Assembly: GCA_029233985.1 (NCBI GenBank)
Contig: JARGOK010000002.1
Coordinates: 124,001-188,000, forward strand
Source of the DNA: Candidatus Altimarinota bacterium
Lineage (GTDB): Bacteria > Patescibacteriota > Gracilibacteria > JAUYGZ01
Direction of reading: 5' to 3'
DNA: 64,000 nt
In this document: piece by piece, positions 9,886-32,508 of the stretch
How positions within the stretch are numbered: the stretch's first letter is position 1
Layout: each line of letters starts with the position of its first letter
Made by a program: the position numbers and the translations under genes
Notes under the pieces: generated by a model
Database searches by the model: none
Seen by the model: only the letters and a program-made list of their open reading frames with translations
What the model was told of the DNA's origin: nothing

Positions 9886-13078
<3,193 letters not shown>

Positions 13079-19932: not shown

Positions 19933-22900
19933 TTAACCGCCAAATAAACGTCTAAATCTCCCAAAGAGGCCTGTATTATCAGATTTTTCTGTTTTGGTGT
20001 GAGAGGTTTGCTGATCTTCATTAGATGGGATATACATATTGGTAACCCATTCGGACTCTACAATTTTTTTAAATGAAGATGGAAGAGTGCGTTTTTCACC
20101 ATTCGGACCAACACCATAGAAATGTATCGGCAATTGGGTCACCTTCTCCAGATCAAGATTCTTCACACGAGCCTCATAAAGCTTATCAACATGCAATGTC
20201 GTGGTCCATCTCAATGGCAAACTGCGATTGTACAAGGCAACCTCATATTCATCACCAAAGAGCTCTATTTGTGGATTTTCTAAAAACTTTTGAAAATCAT
20301 CCTGACATCCATCCAAAAAAGCTTTTATTTTTTTCACATCAGATGATTCGAAGATCAGTTTATTTTCTAGCTGAGAAAACAGAGGAATAGACTTGTCGGC
20401 TTCAATAATAAATTGATCTCCATCTCTGTAGACCATATGAGACCATCGATTCGAGTATTTTCTATCAACTCTCATACTGAGTCCCAAGGATTCGACACGC
20501 TCACGTAAATCATCTAAAGGAGAATGTTTCTCAAGTTCTTTAAAGAGAGAAGATTTTTCTTTCGCTTTAAAGGCATCAAAACGTTTTTTTGTCTGAAAGG
20601 ACTCTTCGCCATATCTCACCTCAAAAGGAAACACTGAGGAAAGTGCATTGTATAATGGCAATCTCGCAAAATGATCAAATTCAAGCGCTCCGAGTCGGTC
20701 TATCCGTGTGAGCCACTCTTGATGCTGTACTTCATCTGAAGATCCCGCCTGTCCCAACCCATAATTCAAGGAAAGAAACAATACTCCACGACTCGCATCA
20801 AAAACGAGAGGAAGTTTTTCCTTGTTCACATTCATTCCATACCCTTCATTGCCGAGTATTTTTTCAAGTTGAGCCAGGAGTTTTTGAGATTGATCCAAAG
20901 AAAGAGCTTTTTCAGTCTTAGTGACCTTATGCAATAAAGAATGAGAGATATTACTCGTATCAAAATCAATCCAATCGTGACCTGTATATTCTGATTGTGC
21001 AAGAACAGTATATTTCCCCCACTGTCTTTCAAGATCATTTTTTATCTTGTCATACTGTTGAAGATTTCCAGGGATTTTTTTTACTTGAGAAGGAATACCT
21101 CGTCCATAAATTATTTTTGCATCTGGAGAACACACTTCGATATATTTCTGCTGACCATACTCATCAGTATCCTCATCTGAAAGATGAGACACTTCATCCA
21201 AAGTGATCATTTTTTCTATTCGAGCGGGAATTTCAGCCTTCTGTTTCCTTATTTTTTCCCTTTTTTTACTCTTATCGATTGGTAACTGCCGGGAAACATC
21301 TTCAGGACCAAAAACGACATCCAAAAGCTTCTGAAGAAACGAGACATATTTTTCTTTTGTAAGACTCACTTCAAAAAGCGACTCAATCTTTTGAGGAATA
21401 TTACTTGCCATACAAATAACAGCTCCAAAGAGAGGCAACTCATCATAAACATCTACCGCATCCTTTCCTAAATACGTCGACACACTAACAAGCCTTTTAT
21501 TGATATCACCACTACCTGAAAAAAGATCTTCCAAAGTGGCATAAGGCGACGAACTTTTAAATGAAAGGTCATCAGAAAACTCTTCAAAATATGCCATCGT
21601 TAGCTTTTCTATTCTTTTTTGAAAATAAACAGCACCTAATGACTGAAACAAAAATGTCAGCGTACGAGGGCTCAGGTTCTTTTTCAAAACCTCACGACAT
21701 TGTAAAGCAAAGGGTTTACCAAACTCGAGAGCATGCTCAATTTTTCCAAAAGCGATCTCCGTGAGTTTATTAAATGAGCCTTGTTCACCCCCAAGGACAT
21801 CAAATGCTTCTTGAACACTTGTTTGAGAAAAAAATGTAAAATCTGGATCATTCAATATTTCTACCACAAGGTTTGAATTCAGATCATCATAGATCATCAT
21901 CGCCAAGAGAGCCTCAGTCTGAGTTGATTCATTTGGACTAAAAAACGAATCAGATTTTTCGTCTTCTTCATGAAACGAAAAAGTTTTCCCTACAGAAAAA
22001 TCAAACCATAAACATTTTTGAGATGCAGAACACTCTGATAGTTGAATCTTTTCAAAAAGCTCAGAGTGAGTAAAAAACCGAAGCAATAATGGATCTCGAG
22101 CGTGTCGCAAAAGAGTGGATCCTGTCAAAAACCCAAAAACCTGAGGAAGAAATTGACGCTCAATCTTTTGACTATAGGGATTTATTACACCAGAAACAAC
22201 AAGCGCAGGTTCATCAAAAACCAACGTAGCAAACTGACCAAACATCATTTCTTGAATACCTTCCTGATTTCCAAGTCGAAAAGCATCCGTCATCCAACGA
22301 ATTTTTTGTTCATCAGAATATTTAGGAAGCATCAAAATCTCTTCTTTCCATAACTGAAGAGGTGATATTTCTTTAATTCTCGATACAGAAGGTGAGGATT
22401 CATGTATGAGAGGTGACTCAGATGCCATTACATCCAAAGTTTCAAGAGTTTCCAAAGCTTCCAATTCACGCTCACCTTCATAAGTAATTAAATAATCCTG
22501 TACCACTTTAAAAAGTGGTGAAAACTCAGATGACTGTAGCCAAGCAAGGACTTCCTTTCGTTTTTCCACATCCAAATTCATCACAAACTCTGGCAAATAT
22601 TCAAAATTATCGCGGACTCGCAATCGTTTTTGGAGAGCAAGGAGCATAAATCTATAAGCCGGATGAGTATGTTGTTTTGAAACTCTCATCAAAAATTTTT
22701 CCAAAAGCCCAATTACTTCTGAATTGCCAGCCCCTTCTCGACCTAAAATCTTTAAAGACAATTCGGTATTTTTCAAGGTATCCGGATCATTCCAAAACGC
22801 AGTGTCTTTAAGAACATTTTTTTGCGTATCATCAGCAAACACTCGAGAGTATTGCAAAGCCCATTCGATAAATTTAATAGCCCCTACAAATTCTTTAGCC

Positions 22901-25491
22901 AAACGCTGTGGTAAATGCTCTACTTGTTTTAGAACCATTGGAAGAATCTCAGCCAAAGCACGTTCAGATTCACTAATATGAGGCGTGATCAACTCATCAA
23001 CTACACCGATACGAGTATCAATCTCTGGAGTACCAGCACCCACACGAATTCTCAGCACGTGAATACTTTTGGTGGCATCTCGAATATATGGCTTTAGTTT
23101 ATTTTGAAACTCTTGAGGGTACCCTTTTGAACGAATTAAATGGTTTAAATCAAACATTTTTGCATAAGAAGTACCTGGCATTTTCACTTCTTTTACTTCG
23201 CACCCCTGTTCACGAAGTGATTTGATGAAATCTTCTTTTAGAGGATACGTCAAACTCGTGAGTTCAAGCACTCCTCCTGGTTCTACTGCTCCAAGAGCGT
23301 TATTCAATCGTTCATCCAATACTCCATTCGTTTCCTGACTGATCACCATTTCTACCAAATCAAATTGTTCATTCTTTGGAATCTGACCAGGAGCATAACT
23401 CACCCAACTCGGCATCTCATCGTAAGACTCAATAAACCCCTTCGAAATAAAGAAATTTCTATGATCTTGCACAAAATTTGGGACTTCACGATCTGTGATA
23501 GCTCGAAGACTACACACTTTACGTACTGGTAATTGTGGGGACTTTCCTCCAGCAAGGGCGGCATCTCTCACCTTCGTATACATTTGTATTTGGCGACTCA
23601 AAGAAAGAGGGAGCACGGCTCGTCGGAGTAACACATCTTCGTCTTCCATATGTTCAATAGATTTTTTTTCAGATGGTTGTTTCTTCCGCTTTTTACTCAT
23701 ATTAGGTTTCCGAGTGTTATCACGAGGAGTCTTTGGTGTAGGAGACTCAGCCATATGAATAATTTCAGCAAGGTCATAATGACCAAAACTAATAAATGGT
23801 GAAAACACTAAAAGCAACTCAGGTAGGATCACACCATTACTCTGAAAAAGTTGATTCATCCGTTCAGATGGCATATCCCCAAAATTTTCTCGAACATTAA
23901 TTTTGTCAGATGAGTAGTACCCAGCTCTACGAGTTTCAGTAATAATCGCTACTCTGTCAGTCAACTCTATAAGACCATCTACATCTAGGATCTCATGCTT
24001 ATTAAAAAGCTCAGGGTGTTTTCGAAGCAACACATCAGCCAAATAAAAAGCCAGCAACCGTGACGAAAGAGCATCTCGAGTATATTCTGCTACAACTCCC
24101 GGACCAGATTTCTCCAAATCAATCCCTTTGAGAACTTTCAGCATCGCCTTTGCTCTTTTCAGTCTCTTTTCAATATTTTTTCGAGCTGATTCTGTTTTTC
24201 CTTTTTGAATCAAATCTTGCAACGTGTCAATTCTCTGCTCTGTATCACGTACCAAGGAATAATAAGAGGCTTTATCATCATGATCTTTTTCATATTTATC
24301 TTCAGCTCTCTGCAATCTCATTTTCCTCTGAGCTGCAATATATTGTTGAATCATCCCAACAGGCAGTGTTAATGAAAATCCCTTTTTTTTCCCTTTTGGT
24401 ACGACTTGAAGATACCCAGAAATAGTCGGCTCACCATTTTGATGAATTCGACGAATATTCTTTGCATCTGGTAGTTTATGTACTCCTAAAGACACCAAGG
24501 CTGAGGTAACAAATGTCACATCTTCCTTATCATTGTAGTCATTCAAGGTCTTTCTCTCTACTTTCAAATCAGGAAAATTATTAACCACATGCCTCAGTAC
24601 ATCAGCCGGAAGATACATCGATTCCATAAGATCCCACAAAACTTCTAAGGATCGCGCCTTTGCAGGCTCAGCCTCATATCTCACTCTTTTTTTTCCAGCG
24701 TCAGTCAGAGCATGAGACTGCAAGAGCTGATGCAATCGAGATAAAACAGTACATAAAACCTCAAAATCATCATCAAAAAATGAGCTCATTTCTTTCGAAG
24801 ATGATTTTTTTAAATGTTCTTCTAGAGTCTTTTTCAATACAGCTGCATCTGTATATTTCTTTTCAACCCAAGCTTTTTCAAGTCTACTGAGATCATCATC
24901 GTGCTTGTCATGTGTTCTCTCACGCTTTCTATTCAGTGTTTCTGAATACTGAAAAAACAACTGACTCATGTATCGCTGCTTTTCATCCAAAAGAAAAGAC
25001 GATAAGGTCACCATTCGATGGAAAAGCTTCAAGGCCCATTCTTTCGTCGGACCATCAGAAACAAGTTCTTTTATCAAGCTATCTGCACTTCCTTTTCGAA
25101 CATCAGAAGCGTACTGTAGCCAGTTTTTTCTCACATCTACGTGTTCTCGAGAAGATTTCAAATTCTGAATCCAGTAATATATTTCTCGGGCCAGTTCAGG
25201 GCTAAGCTCTGGTGTAGACTCTTGAGCAACCTCTGCATACTCCAAAAATTCTTTCAAAGACAAATGAGGGTCTGTCAGATCCAATTCCCAAAGCTCAGAT
25301 GAATCAATGATTTGTTGCACAATATCTGCTGAATATGGTCCTTTTAAAAGCTCTAAACGCGTTTTCTTTGTAATATGAGCAACAGGTCCACGAAAACATG
25401 ACGACACTAATTTCTCTGGAAAATCTCGTGTTTCACTGACTCTTCGAGCATTTACAATCATATCGGTCTTCTCGTAGTTGTTTTTTGACAT
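19933..25491 (-). CDS. Giant 1852-aa protein of unknown function, first gene of the operon
   Basis: No signal peptide or membrane helix; mostly helical, Lys/Glu-rich, so probably cytosolic. A Lys-rich linker (about residues 590-620, KKRKKQPSEKK) divides it. After it, FDLVEMVISQET followed by LGAVEPGGVLELTSL looks like the later strands of a class I methyltransferase fold, but no SAM-binding GxGxG precedes it, so any such domain would be degenerate. The C-terminus ends in an amphipathic GLFGRFRRLFGG that could touch the membrane. It heads an operon with two paralogous single-pass proteins, under a perfect consensus promoter. I recognise no family. Confidence 0.82.
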   Translation of the reverse strand: MSKNNYEKTDMIVNARRVSETRDFPEKLVSSCFRGPVAHITKKTRLELLKGPYSADIVQQIIDSSELWELDLTDPHLSLKEFLEYAEVAQESTPELSPELAREIYYWIQNLKSSREHVDVRKNWLQYASDVRKGSADSLIKELVSDGPTKEWALKLFHRMVTLSSFLLDEKQRYMSQLFFQYSETLNRKRERTHDKHDDDLSRLEKAWVEKKYTDAAVLKKTLEEHLKKSSSKEMSSFFDDDFEVLCTVLSRLHQLLQSHALTDAGKKRVRYEAEPAKARSLEVLWDLMESMYLPADVLRHVVNNFPDLKVERKTLNDYNDKEDVTFVTSALVSLGVHKLPDAKNIRRIHQNGEPTISGYLQVVPKGKKKGFSLTLPVGMIQQYIAAQRKMRLQRAEDKYEKDHDDKASYYSLVRDTEQRIDTLQDLIQKGKTESARKNIEKRLKRAKAMLKVLKGIDLEKSGPGVVAEYTRDALSSRLLAFYLADVLLRKHPELFNKHEILDVDGLIELTDRVAIITETRRAGYYSSDKINVRENFGDMPSERMNQLFQSNGVILPELLLVFSPFISFGHYDLAEIIHMAESPTPKTPRDNTRKPNMSKKRKKQPSEKKSIEHMEDEDVLLRRAVLPLSLSRQIQMYTKVRDAALAGGKSPQLPVRKVCSLRAITDREVPNFVQDHRNFFISKGFIESYDEMPSWVSYAPGQIPKNEQFDLVEMVISQETNGVLDERLNNALGAVEPGGVLELTSLTYPLKEDFIKSLREQGCEVKEVKMPGTSYAKMFDLNHLIRSKGYPQEFQNKLKPYIRDATKSIHVLRIRVGAGTPEIDTRIGVVDELITPHISESERALAEILPMVLKQVEHLPQRLAKEFVGAIKFIEWALQYSRVFADDTQKNVLKDTAFWNDPDTLKNTELSLKILGREGAGNSEVIGLLEKFLMRVSKQHTHPAYRFMLLALQKRLRVRDNFEYLPEFVMNLDVEKRKEVLAWLQSSEFSPLFKVVQDYLITYEGERELEALETLETLDVMASESPLIHESSPSVSRIKEISPLQLWKEEILMLPKYSDEQKIRWMTDAFRLGNQEGIQEMMFGQFATLVFDEPALVVSGVINPYSQKIERQFLPQVFGFLTGSTLLRHARDPLLLRFFTHSELFEKIQLSECSASQKCLWFDFSVGKTFSFHEEDEKSDSFFSPNESTQTEALLAMMIYDDLNSNLVVEILNDPDFTFFSQTSVQEAFDVLGGEQGSFNKLTEIAFGKIEHALEFGKPFALQCREVLKKNLSPRTLTFLFQSLGAVYFQKRIEKLTMAYFEEFSDDLSFKSSSPYATLEDLFSGSGDINKRLVSVSTYLGKDAVDVYDELPLFGAVICMASNIPQKIESLFEVSLTKEKYVSFLQKLLDVVFGPEDVSRQLPIDKSKKREKIRKQKAEIPARIEKMITLDEVSHLSDEDTDEYGQQKYIEVCSPDAKIIYGRGIPSQVKKIPGNLQQYDKIKNDLERQWGKYTVLAQSEYTGHDWIDFDTSNISHSLLHKVTKTEKALSLDQSQKLLAQLEKILGNEGYGMNVNKEKLPLVFDASRGVLFLSLNYGLGQAGSSDEVQHQEWLTRIDRLGALEFDHFARLPLYNALSSVFPFEVRYGEESFQTKKRFDAFKAKEKSSLFKELEKHSPLDDLRERVESLGLSMRVDRKYSNRWSHMVYRDGDQFIIEADKSIPLFSQLENKLIFESSDVKKIKAFLDGCQDDFQKFLENPQIELFGDEYEVALYNRSLPLRWTTTLHVDKLYEARVKNLDLEKVTQLPIHFYGVGPNGEKRTLPSSFKKIVESEWVTNMYIPSNEDQQTSHTKTEKSDNTGLFGRFRRLFGG

Positions 25492-27805: not shown

Positions 27806-28210
27806 CTACTCTCCCAACACCCTCACCGCCTCATCCACTTGTTCTTCACTTACACTGACATAACACAAGGTTTCTTGAGCAGTGCTTTCCGTCACATAAA
27901 TATTCTCAATATTGATGTTTTCTTTAGAAAGTCGAGCAGAGAGATCAGCAATCACCCCAGCCTTACTCGCAACAGTCACCTCTAATATATGGTCCCTACT
28001 CACATCATCAATGCCTGCTCCAGCTAATACATTCAGCGCCTTATCTTCCTGCTCAACGACCACACGCACTACACTTTTCCCAAAGCCCTCACTCACCAAC
28101 AATCCTCGAATACTCACACCAGCATCAGCCAAGAGCTTTGTAACATCAGCCAAGGCTCCAGCATGATTTGAGAGATAAAAAGTCACTTCATTGACGACAA
28201 TTGCTTTCAT
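27806..28210 (-). CDS. Tandem ACT-domain protein
   Basis: 134 residues from the ATG at 28210 (MKAIVVNEVTFYL). Two ACT domains in a row: about residues 3-65 (NHAGALADVTKLLADAGVSIRGL) and 70-134 (SKAGVIADLSARLSKENINIENIYV). ACT domains bind amino acids. It lies downstream of ilvN on the same strand (about 110 nt apart), so it is probably a ligand-responsive partner or sensor for branched-chain metabolism. It lacks a DNA-binding or catalytic part. Confidence 0.85.
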   Translation of the reverse strand: MKAIVVNEVTFYLSNHAGALADVTKLLADAGVSIRGLLVSEGFGKSVVRVVVEQEDKALNVLAGAGIDDVSRDHILEVTVASKAGVIADLSARLSKENINIENIYVTESTAQETLCYVSVSEEQVDEAVRVLGE

Positions 28211-28323
28211 AGAATAAGAAGAAAATATGCACACCTATTGTAATCCTGGATTCAAAGAACGCAAGACCGCTTTACAAGTTTTATTATTTTGTATTTCATT
28301 TTTTTCAAGTGCTATATTTTACA

Positions 28324-28878
28324 TCAATTCACTTGCCCGCTCGCTCCCCTATTCATAGCCGTCAAACCTGTACGAGCCAATTCTTTAATCCCAAATCCAC
28401 GTATTAAATCCAAAAAAGAATCCACCTTTGACGAGTCCCCAGTGATTTCCACCATTAGCGAATCATGTCCCACATCCACAATATTCCCTCGAAAAATATC
28501 AACAATCTGCATGATCTCTGAACGACTGGCTTTGGTGGCATAGATTTTCACCAATGCGAGTTCTCTCTGGACAGTCTGATCAAAACTAATATCACTTACC
28601 TTGATCACCTCTATCACCTTGTAGAGCTGTTTGATCACTTGCTCAGTATCCGTCTTGGTTCCATCGATCACTATCGTCATGCGACTGTATCCGCTTTGCT
28701 CACAAGCACCGATAGTCAAACTCTTCAAATGAAAACCTCGTCGACGAAAAAGACCGGTAATACGACTAAATACCAATGGGGTTTCTTGGACAATGGCTAC
28801 CACCACATGTTCTGTTTTTATCTCAGTAGATTTGACCTGAGTGTAGAGCGAATGAACTTGGTTTTTTATGACAGACAT
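28324..28878 (-). CDS. ilvN: Acetolactate synthase small (regulatory) subunit
   Basis: 184 residues. N-terminal ACT domain (about 23-95, VVVAIVQETPLVFSRITGLFRRRGFHLKSL) binds valine for feedback inhibition; a second domain (about 105-175) contains ELALVKIYA and GLTAMNRG at the end, as in IlvH/IlvN. It follows ilvB by 41 nt in the same operon. Confidence 0.95.
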   Translation of the reverse strand: MSVIKNQVHSLYTQVKSTEIKTEHVVVAIVQETPLVFSRITGLFRRRGFHLKSLTIGACEQSGYSRMTIVIDGTKTDTEQVIKQLYKVIEVIKVSDISFDQTVQRELALVKIYATKASRSEIMQIVDIFRGNIVDVGHDSLMVEITGDSSKVDSFLDLIRGFGIKELARTGLTAMNRGASGQVN

Positions 28879-28919: not shown

Positions 28920-30668
28920 TCAGGATATTTTATGAGTACCATCTGAGCAAGTAATCGTGTCAGACAAGCTTTTTCCACTTGGTACCATCGGAAACACATT
29001 TTCTTCTTTTTGAACAACAAACTCGCAGAGCACTGGACCAGTTTCTTGTCTCATACGTTCAATCACGGATTTCATATCTCCATTTGTCTCAGCTTTCATC
29101 GCTTTTATTCCGCAAGCCTCAGCAAGCTTCACAAAATCTGGATTAAACATCGGTGTAGAAGCATAATTTTTATCAAAAAAAAGCTCTTGCCACTGTCGGA
29201 CCATCCCCAAGAATGAATTATTTAGCACAGCTATCTTCACCGCAATCCCATCCTGAGCTAAAGTCACCAACTCTTGCATATTCATTTGAAAACTCCCATC
29301 GCCAATGATCGCCCACACTTCTTTTTCCGGATAAGCCACTTTAGCACCCATAGCAGCCGGCAATGCATAGCCCATTGTCCCAGACCCACCAGAAGTCAGA
29401 TGAGAATGCGGATTCTGAAACAAATACTCTTGAGCTGTTATCATCTGATGCTGACCCACATCCGAAGCAATAACCGCCTGCCCTTCAGTCTGTTTATACA
29501 ATTCTCTCACAACATCTCTCATACTCAACTTCATTCCTCCACCCTCTTCCTTCTTTTTTTGAATTATTGACTGAGGCACTGGGTACTCTTGCTTCCATTC
29601 CTCAATCTGCTTCAACCATTCGTTATATTCTCCTTGCTCAACAATCCCATTCATCTCTTTTAAAACATTCCTGGCATCTCCCACAATTGGCAATTCTGTG
29701 TGTACATTCTTTCCAATCTCTGCCGGATCAATATCCACATGAATAATGCTCGCTTTTGGCGCAAAATCATCAGCCTTTCCGATAATCCGGTCATCGAAAC
29801 GAAGACCAATCCCAAACAACACGTCACACTCCTGGACTGCAAAATTACAATGCGCAAAACCATGCATTCCCAGCATTCCCATCGATTGTGGATGATTTTC
29901 AGGAAAACATCCCAAACCATGAAGAGTCGTCACCACAGGAATATTCATCTTTTCAGCCAGTTCAATCAAATCAGGCATCGCATTAGCAATCAACACTCCA
30001 TGCCCAGCCAAGATCAATGGACGCTCAGCTTTTTCTAGCCATTGAGCCGCCTGCTGAATCATTCGCTTATTCCCCATCACCTTTGGTCGGTACCCCTTCA
30101 CGTCAGTTTTCTCTGGGTAGACAAATTCTTCAACCACTTGGTTTTGAATATCCTTTGGGAAATCAATCAGTACTGGACCAGGGCGACCGCTTCGAGCGAT
30201 ATGAAAAGCCTCTTTTACAGTAGCTGCAATATCTTTCGCATCAGTAATATAGTAGCTCTGCTTTGTAATTGGCTGAGTAATACCGATCACATCGGCTTCC
30301 TGAAATGCATCCGTCCCCGCCACTTGAGTCGGCACTTGTCCAGTAATAGCTATAATCGGCATCGAGTCCATATATGCATCAAAGATTCCCGTCACCAAAT
30401 TTGTCGCACCAGGGCCAGAAGTAGCCACACACACTCCCAGTTTTTCATGACCAGTCACTCGAGAATACCCAATAGCCGCTAAAGCAGCACCTTGTTCATT
30501 CCTTACCAAAACATGATTCAGATCCGGAAAATCCTTCATCACATCATAAAACGGCATAATAGCACCACCAGGGTATCCAAACAGATCCGTGACTCCTTCC
30601 ATCATCAGGCTCATAGCCATGACATGAGAGCCCGTTAGCGAACCTGTATATGTGTTCTTTTTAGCCAT
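28920..30668 (-). CDS. ilvB: Acetolactate synthase large (catalytic) subunit
   Basis: 582 residues. Thiamine diphosphate enzyme making acetolactate or acetohydroxybutyrate. The catalytic Glu is in RNEQGAALAAIGYSR (about residue 58), the FAD-binding middle domain is complete, and the ThDP-Mg motif GDGSFQMNMQEL ... AVLNNSFLGMVRQWQ is near 440-475. The C-terminus VPSGKSLSDTI is typical. Expression is probably set by the leader-peptide attenuator 75-180 nt upstream. Confidence 0.97.
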   Translation of the reverse strand: MAKKNTYTGSLTGSHVMAMSLMMEGVTDLFGYPGGAIMPFYDVMKDFPDLNHVLVRNEQGAALAAIGYSRVTGHEKLGVCVATSGPGATNLVTGIFDAYMDSMPIIAITGQVPTQVAGTDAFQEADVIGITQPITKQSYYITDAKDIAATVKEAFHIARSGRPGPVLIDFPKDIQNQVVEEFVYPEKTDVKGYRPKVMGNKRMIQQAAQWLEKAERPLILAGHGVLIANAMPDLIELAEKMNIPVVTTLHGLGCFPENHPQSMGMLGMHGFAHCNFAVQECDVLFGIGLRFDDRIIGKADDFAPKASIIHVDIDPAEIGKNVHTELPIVGDARNVLKEMNGIVEQGEYNEWLKQIEEWKQEYPVPQSIIQKKKEEGGGMKLSMRDVVRELYKQTEGQAVIASDVGQHQMITAQEYLFQNPHSHLTSGGSGTMGYALPAAMGAKVAYPEKEVWAIIGDGSFQMNMQELVTLAQDGIAVKIAVLNNSFLGMVRQWQELFFDKNYASTPMFNPDFVKLAEACGIKAMKAETNGDMKSVIERMRQETGPVLCEFVVQKEENVFPMVPSGKSLSDTITCSDGTHKIS

Positions 30669-30743
30669 ATCAGTAAAGAATTAATGTGAATATTAGTAGA
30701 TTCGAATATCATTCGTTGATTCGGATCGGGCGAGCGCAGCGAC

Positions 30744-30769
30744 AAAAAAAAAACCCTATATCAGGGCTT
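30744..30769 (-). terminator. Attenuator terminator ahead of ilvB
   Basis: Minus strand AAGCCCT (30769-30763), loop GATAT, AGGGTTT (30757-30751), continuing into a run of T to 30744. The 5' arm CCCT can alternatively pair with an AGGG that overlaps the leader-peptide stop codon (about 30801-30796), giving an antiterminator. Confidence 0.8.
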
Positions 30770-30798
30770 GTATCTTCACTTTATATGAAAGCACAACC

Positions 30799-30852
30799 CT
30801 AATTCAGAGGGATTCCCACGACGTTCACGAGGATGACGAATGATGCATTCAT
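30799..30852 (-). CDS. ilvB leader peptide (attenuator peptide)
   Basis: A 17-residue ORF, MNASFVILVNVVGIPLN, ending in TAG (30801-30799). Eight of the eleven residues from V6 to L16 are Val, Ile or Leu. It ends 30 nt before an intrinsic terminator hairpin that stands 76 nt before ilvB. The arrangement is that of ribosome-mediated attenuation: stalling on Val/Ile/Leu codons would cover CCCT in the leader and free AGGG to pair with the terminator arm. No Shine-Dalgarno is visible, as for most genes here. A possible promoter is TTGATG-16-TATTCT upstream (about 30870-30898). Confidence 0.78.
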   Translation of the reverse strand: MNASFVILVNVVGIPLN

Positions 30853-31091
30853 ATGATCAATAAGTTGTAAAAAGAATAGCACTCTCAAAAAAGACATCAA
30901 GGAAAAATACTCTTCCAGTCCGTCTTTCTAAATCCGTATTTCAGAACTGAAATCAGAGAGTATTAGCTCCAACAAAAAAAACATGGATTCAACTTAACAA
31001 TGCGAAATCATTTGCATTAATATTCCTGCAAAAAAAATGTAGTCATAGCATGTCTTCAGAACATTAGTGCGGTATTTATATCAAACCATGG
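30853..31091. other. Divergent intergenic region between the ilvB leader and obg
   Basis: The minus-strand promoter of the ilvB leader (TTGATG-16-TATTCT, about 30870-30898) is the only feature I can support here. The rest is AT-rich with no ORF of coding character. Confidence 0.4.
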
Positions 31092-31097
31092 TACAAT
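31089..31097 (+). promoter_or_regulatory. Extended -10 promoter of obg
   Basis: TGG-TACAAT (TGnTATAAT type). No good -35 box is seen. It gives a leader of about 20 nt before the ATG at 31123. Confidence 0.5.
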
Positions 31098-31122
31098 AAA
31101 ACGCCTAAAACTAATATTTCAC

Positions 31123-32508
31123 ATGTTCTGCGATCAAACACAGCTCGTCCTCACTGCAGGAAGTGGAGGAAAAGGATGTATTGCCTTTCTCCGTGAAAAA
31201 TTCATCGCAAAAGGTGGACCAAACGGTGGTAATGGAGGAAAAGGAGGAGATATGATCTTAAAGGTCAACACGGCTCTCAACAGTCTAATTGATCTTCATA
31301 CCTACAAAAAATTCACAGCAGATGCAGGAATGATGGGCCTCGGACAAAATAAGTACGGAAAAAATGGTGAAGATATGGTCCTTGAAGTCCCACTTGGAAC
31401 TATTGTTCGAGAAATTATTCGAAACACAGATGAAGAGATCATTGAAAAAAAAGTCATCGCAGATCTCTCAACTCCAGGGAAAAGCCTGCTTATTTGCAAA
31501 GGAGGAAGAGGTGGGTACGGAAATGCACACTTTGTGAGTTCAGTCCGCCAAGCGCCTAAATTTGCCGAACTCGGTGAAGACGGAGAACAAATCGAAGTCG
31601 AACTAGAACTCAAGCTCGTAGCTGATATTGGAATTATTGGAATCCCTTCTGCTGGAAAATCCACACTAATCTCTGTGATTTCCAATGCCAAACCAAAAAT
31701 TGCTGATTACCATTTTACGACACTCAAACCAAATCTCGGTGTGGTGAAAATTGCCGAAGGAGAATCATTTGTCGTCGCTGATATCCCAGGACTTATCGAG
31801 AATGCCCATGAAGGAAAAGGGCTCGGTATAAAATTCCTAAAGCATATCCAACGATGTCGATTACTCGTTCATCTCATCGATCCTATCCAACCAGATTTAT
31901 CCACACTTGAAAAAAAACCTGATGCAATATGGCAATCTGTCATCAATAATTTTGTCATGATAAATGCAGAGCTAGAAGCTTTTTCTCCGGAATTAGCGAC
32001 CAAACAACAACTGGTCGTTATTAATAAGTCTGATCAAATCGACGAAGAACTCGCCAAAGATCTCATCGAACATCTAAAAAAAGAAACCAAAAAAGACAAG
32101 CGGTTCATATTTTTTGACAAGTCTATCTCTGCCGCAACCACTGCAAACATACAAGAACTCAAATACTTTCTCTCCGGAGAACTCAACAAACTGCCAAAAG
32201 AAGTTCTTCTCGACCCAAAGTCGCCAGAAGCTATGGAAGATCCAGATGCACCAGTCATCTATCGTCCGCATCTCGACAATCCAAAATACTTCTCCATCGA
32301 AAAAGTAGCCGAAGAAACCTTCAAGATATCAGGTCAACGAATCGAGCAAATAGTCAATATGACCGACGTCAACAATCCAGAAGCTATGATGAGAGTCGAC
32401 GATGTTCTCTTCAAGATGGGAATTGCCAAAGAACTCAAAAAACAAGGAGCACAAGATGGATGCACCCTCATTATCGGAAAACACGAACTTGAATTTACTC
32501 GCGATTAG
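31123..32508 (+). CDS. obg: GTPase Obg/CgtA, ribosome assembly
   Basis: 461 residues. The Gly-rich Obg fold fills the N-terminus (about 1-160, GSGGKGCIAFLREKF, GGPNGGNGGKGGD). The G domain follows with G1 GIPSAGKST (about 172-180), G3 DIPGLIE, and G4 NKSD. The C-terminal OCT domain (about 375-461) contains FKISGQRIEQIVNMTD and DDVLFKMGIAKELKKQGAQDG. Binds the large ribosomal subunit and links GTP level to assembly. Its 3' end overlaps the convergent 211-aa gene by 14 bp. Confidence 0.96.
   Translation: MFCDQTQLVLTAGSGGKGCIAFLREKFIAKGGPNGGNGGKGGDMILKVNTALNSLIDLHTYKKFTADAGMMGLGQNKYGKNGEDMVLEVPLGTIVREIIRNTDEEIIEKKVIADLSTPGKSLLICKGGRGGYGNAHFVSSVRQAPKFAELGEDGEQIEVELELKLVADIGIIGIPSAGKSTLISVISNAKPKIADYHFTTLKPNLGVVKIAEGESFVVADIPGLIENAHEGKGLGIKFLKHIQRCRLLVHLIDPIQPDLSTLEKKPDAIWQSVINNFVMINAELEAFSPELATKQQLVVINKSDQIDEELAKDLIEHLKKETKKDKRFIFFDKSISAATTANIQELKYFLSGELNKLPKEVLLDPKSPEAMEDPDAPVIYRPHLDNPKYFSIEKVAEETFKISGQRIEQIVNMTDVNNPEAMMRVDDVLFKMGIAKELKKQGAQDGCTLIIGKHELEFTRD

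Follow-up and report, generated by a model that had tools for sequence, protein, structure and literature searches.

A candidate ribosome-mediated attenuator upstream of ilvB-ilvN in a CPR genome, and gene-matched leaders in its class

Known leader-peptide attenuators and the ilvB locus

The attenuators of the enterobacterial ilvGMEDA and ilvBN operons combine a mixed Val/Ile/Leu leader peptide with a terminator (segments 3:4) that competes with an antiterminator (segments 2:3), and in mycobacteria leaderless short ORFs serve as cysteine attenuators. In Actinobacteria, leader peptides rich in Val, Ile and Leu (V/I/L) precede ilvB (Corynebacterium ilvBNC, the ilvB-II motif), and a terminator/antiterminator switch has been proposed for them or tested by mutation (PMC1262725, PMC10272879, PMC11857589). 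The leaderless short ORFs of mycobacteria have been described (PMC4633059), and the mycobacterial cys leaders have no obvious intrinsic terminator (PMC1262725). V/I/L-rich upstream ORFs (uORFs) also precede ilvB in the ilvB-OMG and Leptospira ilvB RNA motifs, for which attenuation was suggested (PMC10272879). A 2010 paper gave Proteobacteria and Actinobacteria as the groups in which leader-peptide systems were known and itself added Firmicutes (PMC2965389). No report joining CPR/Patescibacteria with leader-peptide attenuation was found in the open literature searched.

According to our analysis, the ilvB-ilvN genes of a Candidatus Altimarinota bacterium are very probably controlled by a predicted ribosome-mediated transcription attenuator that senses valine, isoleucine and leucine. 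The mechanism is already known; new are the lineage and a genome in which Shine-Dalgarno (SD) sites are almost absent. Like the actinobacterial ilvB leaders, the locus has a V/I/L-rich uORF in the 15–17-residue range before ilvB, followed by an intrinsic terminator, but it lacks an Rfam match, belongs to another phylum and lies in a genome with hardly any SD sites; furthermore, the C. glutamicum leader is described with three hairpins, whereas the 1:2 hairpin is unsupported here. With the enterobacterial systems it shares the mixed Val/Ile/Leu leader and the 3:4 versus 2:3 switch, although it takes up just 109 nt, counted from the leader start through the T-run, and has neither an SD site nor a strong 1:2 pause hairpin. 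The mycobacterial leaderless short ORFs resemble it in having the leader start at the mRNA 5′ end or close to it and in runs of codons for one amino acid; unlike in the mycobacterial cys leaders, a terminator is present, and relatives show the near-leaderless layout more clearly than does the window (the whole stretch of DNA analyzed, 64,000 nucleotides). The ilvB-OMG and Leptospira ilvB motifs are similar in their V/I/L-rich uORF before ilvB but differ in that Rfam scans of the window and the class loci revealed no riboswitch, T-box, ppGpp riboswitch or leader family over threshold (Trp_leader reached a covariance score of 14 bits versus the 41 required; ilvB-OMG, Leu_leader and others were also below threshold).

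Leader, terminator and antiterminator upstream of ilvB

The features of the locus, in the direction of transcription, are:

30873..30900, minus strand: candidate ilvB promoter predicted from sequence alone, TTGATG (30900-30895), a 16-nt spacer and TGC-TATTCT (30878-30873, extended -10)
30799..30852, minus strand: leader ORF of 17 codons, MNASFVILVNVVGIPLN, by translation; V/I/L leaders recur before ilvB genes of the class
30808..30811, minus strand: segment 1, CCCT within the leader ORF, possible partner of AGGG in segment 2 (hairpin -3.4 kcal/mol, z -0.1)
30792..30802, minus strand: segment 2, TTAGGGTTGTG, overlapping the leader stop (antiterminator fold)
30774..30790, minus strand: apical 6-bp hairpin TTTCAT/GTGAAG within the antiterminator (fold)
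30761..30772, minus strand: segment 3, TACAAGCCCTGA, 3′ strand of the antiterminator, whose AAGCCCTG (30769-30762) doubles as the 5′ arm of the terminator (fold)
30744..30769, minus strand: intrinsic terminator, 8-bp hairpin 30769-30751 (segment 4, TAGGGTTT) and T-run (fold)
28920..30668, minus strand: ilvB, acetolactate synthase large subunit, 582 aa, first gene under the predicted control (tblastn relatives up to 68% identical, nearly full length)
28324..28878, minus strand: ilvN, acetolactate synthase small subunit (Pfam ALS_ss_C 1.3e-30, ACT_AHAS_ss)
27806..28234, minus strand: tandem ACT-domain protein (Pfam ACT, two stretches), 89 bp after ilvN and possibly in the same operon as ilvB-ilvN

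Translation of the minus-strand ORF 30852-30799 upstream of ilvB confirmed the 17 residues of the original prediction, with Val, Ile or Leu at 8 of the 11 codons from 6 to 16. The leader was also correctly predicted to end over an AGGG segment: its stop codon TAG forms the first bases of TAGGG (30801-30797) and lies inside segment 2. The start at 30852 is tentative; ATG 30897, TTG 30888 and GTG 30882 lie upstream in frame with no stop between and would extend the peptide to 29–32 residues. The candidate promoter has a weak consensus score, equaled or exceeded in 63 of 200 shuffles, and the best promoter match in the window lies ~20 nt from the leader start.

The terminator hairpin AAGCCCTG-ATA-TAGGGTTT (as a whole, AAGCCCTGATATAGGGTTT) is followed by a T-run reaching 30744, has a folding energy of -7.9 kcal/mol (z -2.9 against shuffles) and is the sole terminator-like site in 30600-31200. 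It is situated 29 nt past the leader stop, at a distance that in relatives is mostly 22–34 nt, and 75 nt ahead of ilvB. The obgE gene upstream of this region (from 31123, plus strand) is divergent, so the terminator can act only on the ilvB transcript. Alternatively, the 5′ arm of the terminator pairs with TTAGGGTTGTG over the stop codon, forming an 11-bp antiterminator of -15.7 kcal/mol (z -4.1; none of 200 shuffles was equally good). The proposed switch, a CCCT...AGGG terminator with a T-run whose 5′ arm can pair instead with the AGGG at the leader end, is thus borne out.

The 4-bp CCCT/AGGG helix between segments 1 and 2 was no better than shuffles at the window locus (p 0.64). Therefore, of the "complete logic" of ribosome-mediated attenuation claimed originally, the leader, terminator and antiterminator stand and the 1:2 helix does no better than chance, and we describe the locus as a three-segment attenuator rather than one of the four-segment trp type. 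The elements of a leader-peptide attenuator that were found comprise an ORF rich in codons for the pathway product, an intrinsic terminator before the first gene, an antiterminator spanning the stop region and recurrence in relatives; the 1:2 protector/pause hairpin of the classical four-segment type was not found at the window locus. The 1:2 helix is supported in only a few relatives (L082, p 0.002; L238, p 0.007), and as a general feature of these leaders it is weak across loci.

The genome (1.66 Mb, 97% complete) does belong to the CPR, and its SD-less translation, likewise predicted, agrees with the ORF counts: of 56 long ORFs, drawn from the window and from three other parts of the genome, 2 have an SD tetramer at -20..-4, compared with 6 of 56 for a control window; the 16S 3′ end still carries CCTCC. 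This 3′ end lies on another contig (G000:C3:508808), and the 23S and 5S rRNA genes at 9886-13075 of the window have no adjacent 16S gene. Matched to a model of 2,925 positions, the 23S gene extends over 3,190 bases and may contain an insertion. An ORF of 1,852 residues (19933-25491, minus strand) had no Pfam match. Neither the ilvD gene in the window (no clear leader) nor leuA of the same genome, which sits ~70 bp after hflX (no leader), resembles ilvB in this respect.

Leaders at ilvB and other amino-acid genes in relatives

Among the genomes examined from the same small family and from its order no other ilvB was found, and the comparison was therefore widened to the class, where ilvB occurs in 49 of 353 genomes and the closest relative belongs to another family. 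This nearest relative, Ca. Peregrinibacteria RIFOXYB2_FULL_33_20 (L002/L082; IlvB 68% identical), has the leader MEKNLHLIVSLVLI, the antiterminator GGGTGGATT/AATCCGCCC and the terminator AATCCGC/GCGGATT continuing as GCGGATT-TTTTC, none of which shares sequence with the parts in the window. Further leaders before ilvB in the class are MTQLLVVLV, MNQLNVVVLLG, MNLSIVVVMLG, MRSLSIVLGLVLVLR, MKQINLLVILLLITIKQ.., MNLTQTSILVLVLIYQ and MKNVFSLVILLVVILINQI, not all of them with a terminator at the usual spacing. The short ORF and alternative stems of the original prediction thus recur in the closest ilvB relative and in several class members with V/I/L leaders, terminators and antiterminators. Overall, a V/I/L leader at p<=0.05 was present in 14 of 49 class ilvB upstreams versus 1 of 79 from a genome collection, mostly outside the CPR and for the most part from Geobacter relatives, archaea, Firmicutes and Bacteroidetes (Fisher 4e-6). 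About 70% of the class ilvB genes have no such leader, in some cases perhaps because ilvB does not come first there. No leader was found at the Roizmanbacteria and KatS3mg090 ilvB.

In some class genomes ilvB contains 27–33 in-frame TGA codons; recoded Gracilibacteria likewise read in-frame TGA as an amino acid. V/I/L leaders precede ilvB in three genomes that read TGA in this way (L122, L123, L126). In other CPR classes, 3 of 15 ilvB genes had a leader, one of them with a terminator: at L262, MKKQLALVLSLIINTPTGV precedes ilvB and the terminator lies 34 nt past its stop. Attenuation may extend beyond the class.

Since leader sequences cannot be aligned between families, fold and duplex tests replaced a column-wise count of compensatory changes. 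A terminator 18–36 nt past the stop follows 13 of 23 leader-like ORFs, as against 26 of 322 other short ORFs in the same upstreams (Fisher 3e-8). The stretch from the stop to segment 3 folds better than shuffles at most loci, with per-gene values of 2e-4 (ilvB), 3e-7 (ilvA) and 1e-8 (leuA) and a Fisher combination over 21 loci of 4e-16, although the loci are related and the combined p-values therefore optimistic. Codon content was the sole criterion for picking leaders, which makes this test independent of their selection. Where a leader has a good promoter match, 4–12 nt separate the end of the -10 box from the leader start in 11 of 14 cases, placing the transcript start at or a few bases from the start codon; several leader ORFs of relatives may, by this spacing, be leaderless.

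The codon content of the leaders follows the gene. The product of ilvA serves isoleucine synthesis specifically, and Ile-run leaders precede this gene in the genome of the window (MKNTIIIIDL), in a second genome of the family (MNKNIIIISP) and elsewhere (MKRLILIISVLIIIL, MHKFATIISIVVIIIF, MKKLALSLLIIVIIIL), and Leu-run leaders precede leuA (MQKQLLLLELLLLRD, MLMNKLLLSPLLLLRLDRA). Leaders of trpE carry WW and have a terminator 20–26 nt past the stop in 8 of 8 cases, while some hisG leaders are His-rich, with a terminator in 3 of 5. Matched leaders at p<=0.05, where 5% would be expected for each gene, numbered 12 of 30 for ilvA-Ile, 6 of 30 for leuA-Leu, 9 of 30 for trpE-Trp and 7 of 30 for hisG-His. 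Counts for unmatched combinations were mostly near chance; those raised were leuA-His, hisG-Trp and ilvA-V/I/L (5 of 30 each), the last being expected and the first two possibly arising from upstream coding sequence. Some His-rich matches before hisG are tails of TrpR/YerC-like genes, which makes histidine the weakest of the five cases. The relatives thus appear to use the same attenuation for isoleucine, leucine and tryptophan, and probably for histidine.

The ilvA upstream region of the window's own genome is a predicted second attenuator: MKNTIIIIDL (L220:17724-17756; G000:C5 about 105724-105756) is followed by an 8–9 bp hairpin and a T-run, and the gene encodes a threonine dehydratase with a LeuA_dimer domain.

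Several trp and his loci have features of their own. A conserved WW leader, mostly with an S-x-R ending, is seen in eight trpE upstreams (L193, L194, L199, L200, L212, L213, L214, L217). Before the window genome's own trpE (L221:2173-2208), the short ORF MKPLFQKSYWH has one Trp codon, its ATG overlaps the stop (ATGA) of a Trp-repressor-family gene (Pfam Trp_repressor 2.7e-22), and a 5-bp hairpin with T6 lies 40 nt downstream; a trp attenuator coupled to TrpR translation is possible at this site. At L165, L176 and L183, before hisG, the His-rich leader-like stretch apparently encodes the C terminus of a TrpR/YerC-like regulator, and one ORF may serve there as both regulator and leader.

Proposed mechanism, alternatives and significance

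The alternative pairing of the parts and their recurrence in relatives with gene-matched codons are apparent from the sequences themselves; we infer where transcription starts, that the ORF is translated and the ribosome stalls, and which way the response runs. RNA polymerase would initiate about 10–20 nt ahead of the leader ORF, and a ribosome would start the leader without an SD site. A shortage of charged Val-, Ile- or Leu-tRNA would stall the ribosome in VILVNVV (codons 6–12) and leave segment 2 exposed; segment 2 would then pair with segment 3 in the 11-bp antiterminator, no terminator would form and ilvB would be transcribed. When all three amino acids are plentiful, the ribosome would reach the stop codon and hide segment 2, segments 3 and 4 would pair, and transcription would end at 30744. 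Unlike in E. coli trp, an untranslated leader would be expected to read through, the antiterminator winning because segment 1 is weak.

It is improbable that the two helices are instead flipped by an RNA-binding protein, a small molecule such as ppGpp or a tRNA, the V/I/L ORF being a coincidence. Such a pair of helices would suit any sensor, the 1:2 helix is weak, and a ppGpp riboswitch is used by ilvB genes elsewhere (PMC10272879); however, the codon content tracks the gene at ilvB, ilvA, leuA, trpE and hisG, the spacing from stop to terminator is near constant, and the locus has no Rfam riboswitch or T-box match.

Slightly less probable still is a plain hairpin with a T-run that causes constitutive partial termination without regulation, next to an ORF that is V/I/L-rich by chance. 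Hydrophobic-residue codons are common in T-rich DNA, and the leader ORF by itself is marginal (p about 0.05): an equally rich short ORF turned up in 1,427 of 20,000 dinucleotide shuffles of the 300-nt region preceding ilvB. Since the ORF is weak alone, the attenuator claim rests on the combined layout and the comparison with relatives. A rich ORF with a terminator 15–40 nt past its stop was found in 75 shuffles, and the complete layout, including an antiterminator of equal duplex energy, in 6; these spacing-limited tests were used instead of a composite leader-plus-terminator score, which without a tight spacing limit mispaired elements in the window. The parts also recur independently, and in different sequence, among relatives; this, set beside the single V/I/L leader among 79 ilvB upstreams outside the class, argues against unregulated termination. 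That the ORF encodes a functional small hydrophobic peptide or a piece of a longer coding sequence is very improbable, for although it is hydrophobic and upstream in-frame starts lengthen it, the leaders are conserved only in V/I/L (or Ile, Leu, Trp) content and in their place before a terminator.

Beyond the ribosome-mediated attenuator at ilvB, we advance with some reserve, as a reading rather less likely to hold than to fail, a class-wide form of CPR attenuation on leaderless or near-leaderless ORFs. The ribosome would begin at the transcript's 5′ end once this emerges from RNA polymerase, coupling would be achieved without SD sites, a 1:2 pause hairpin would be unnecessary, and the system would operate also in TGA-recoded lineages.

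In conclusion, gene-matched leaders occur across a CPR class, which suggests that its reduced members sense the supply of amino acids and adjust biosynthesis. Attenuation would imply tight coupling of transcription and translation in cells that hardly use SD sites. Most members of the CPR are uncultivable, and the leaders offer short sequences that may be tested with reporters.
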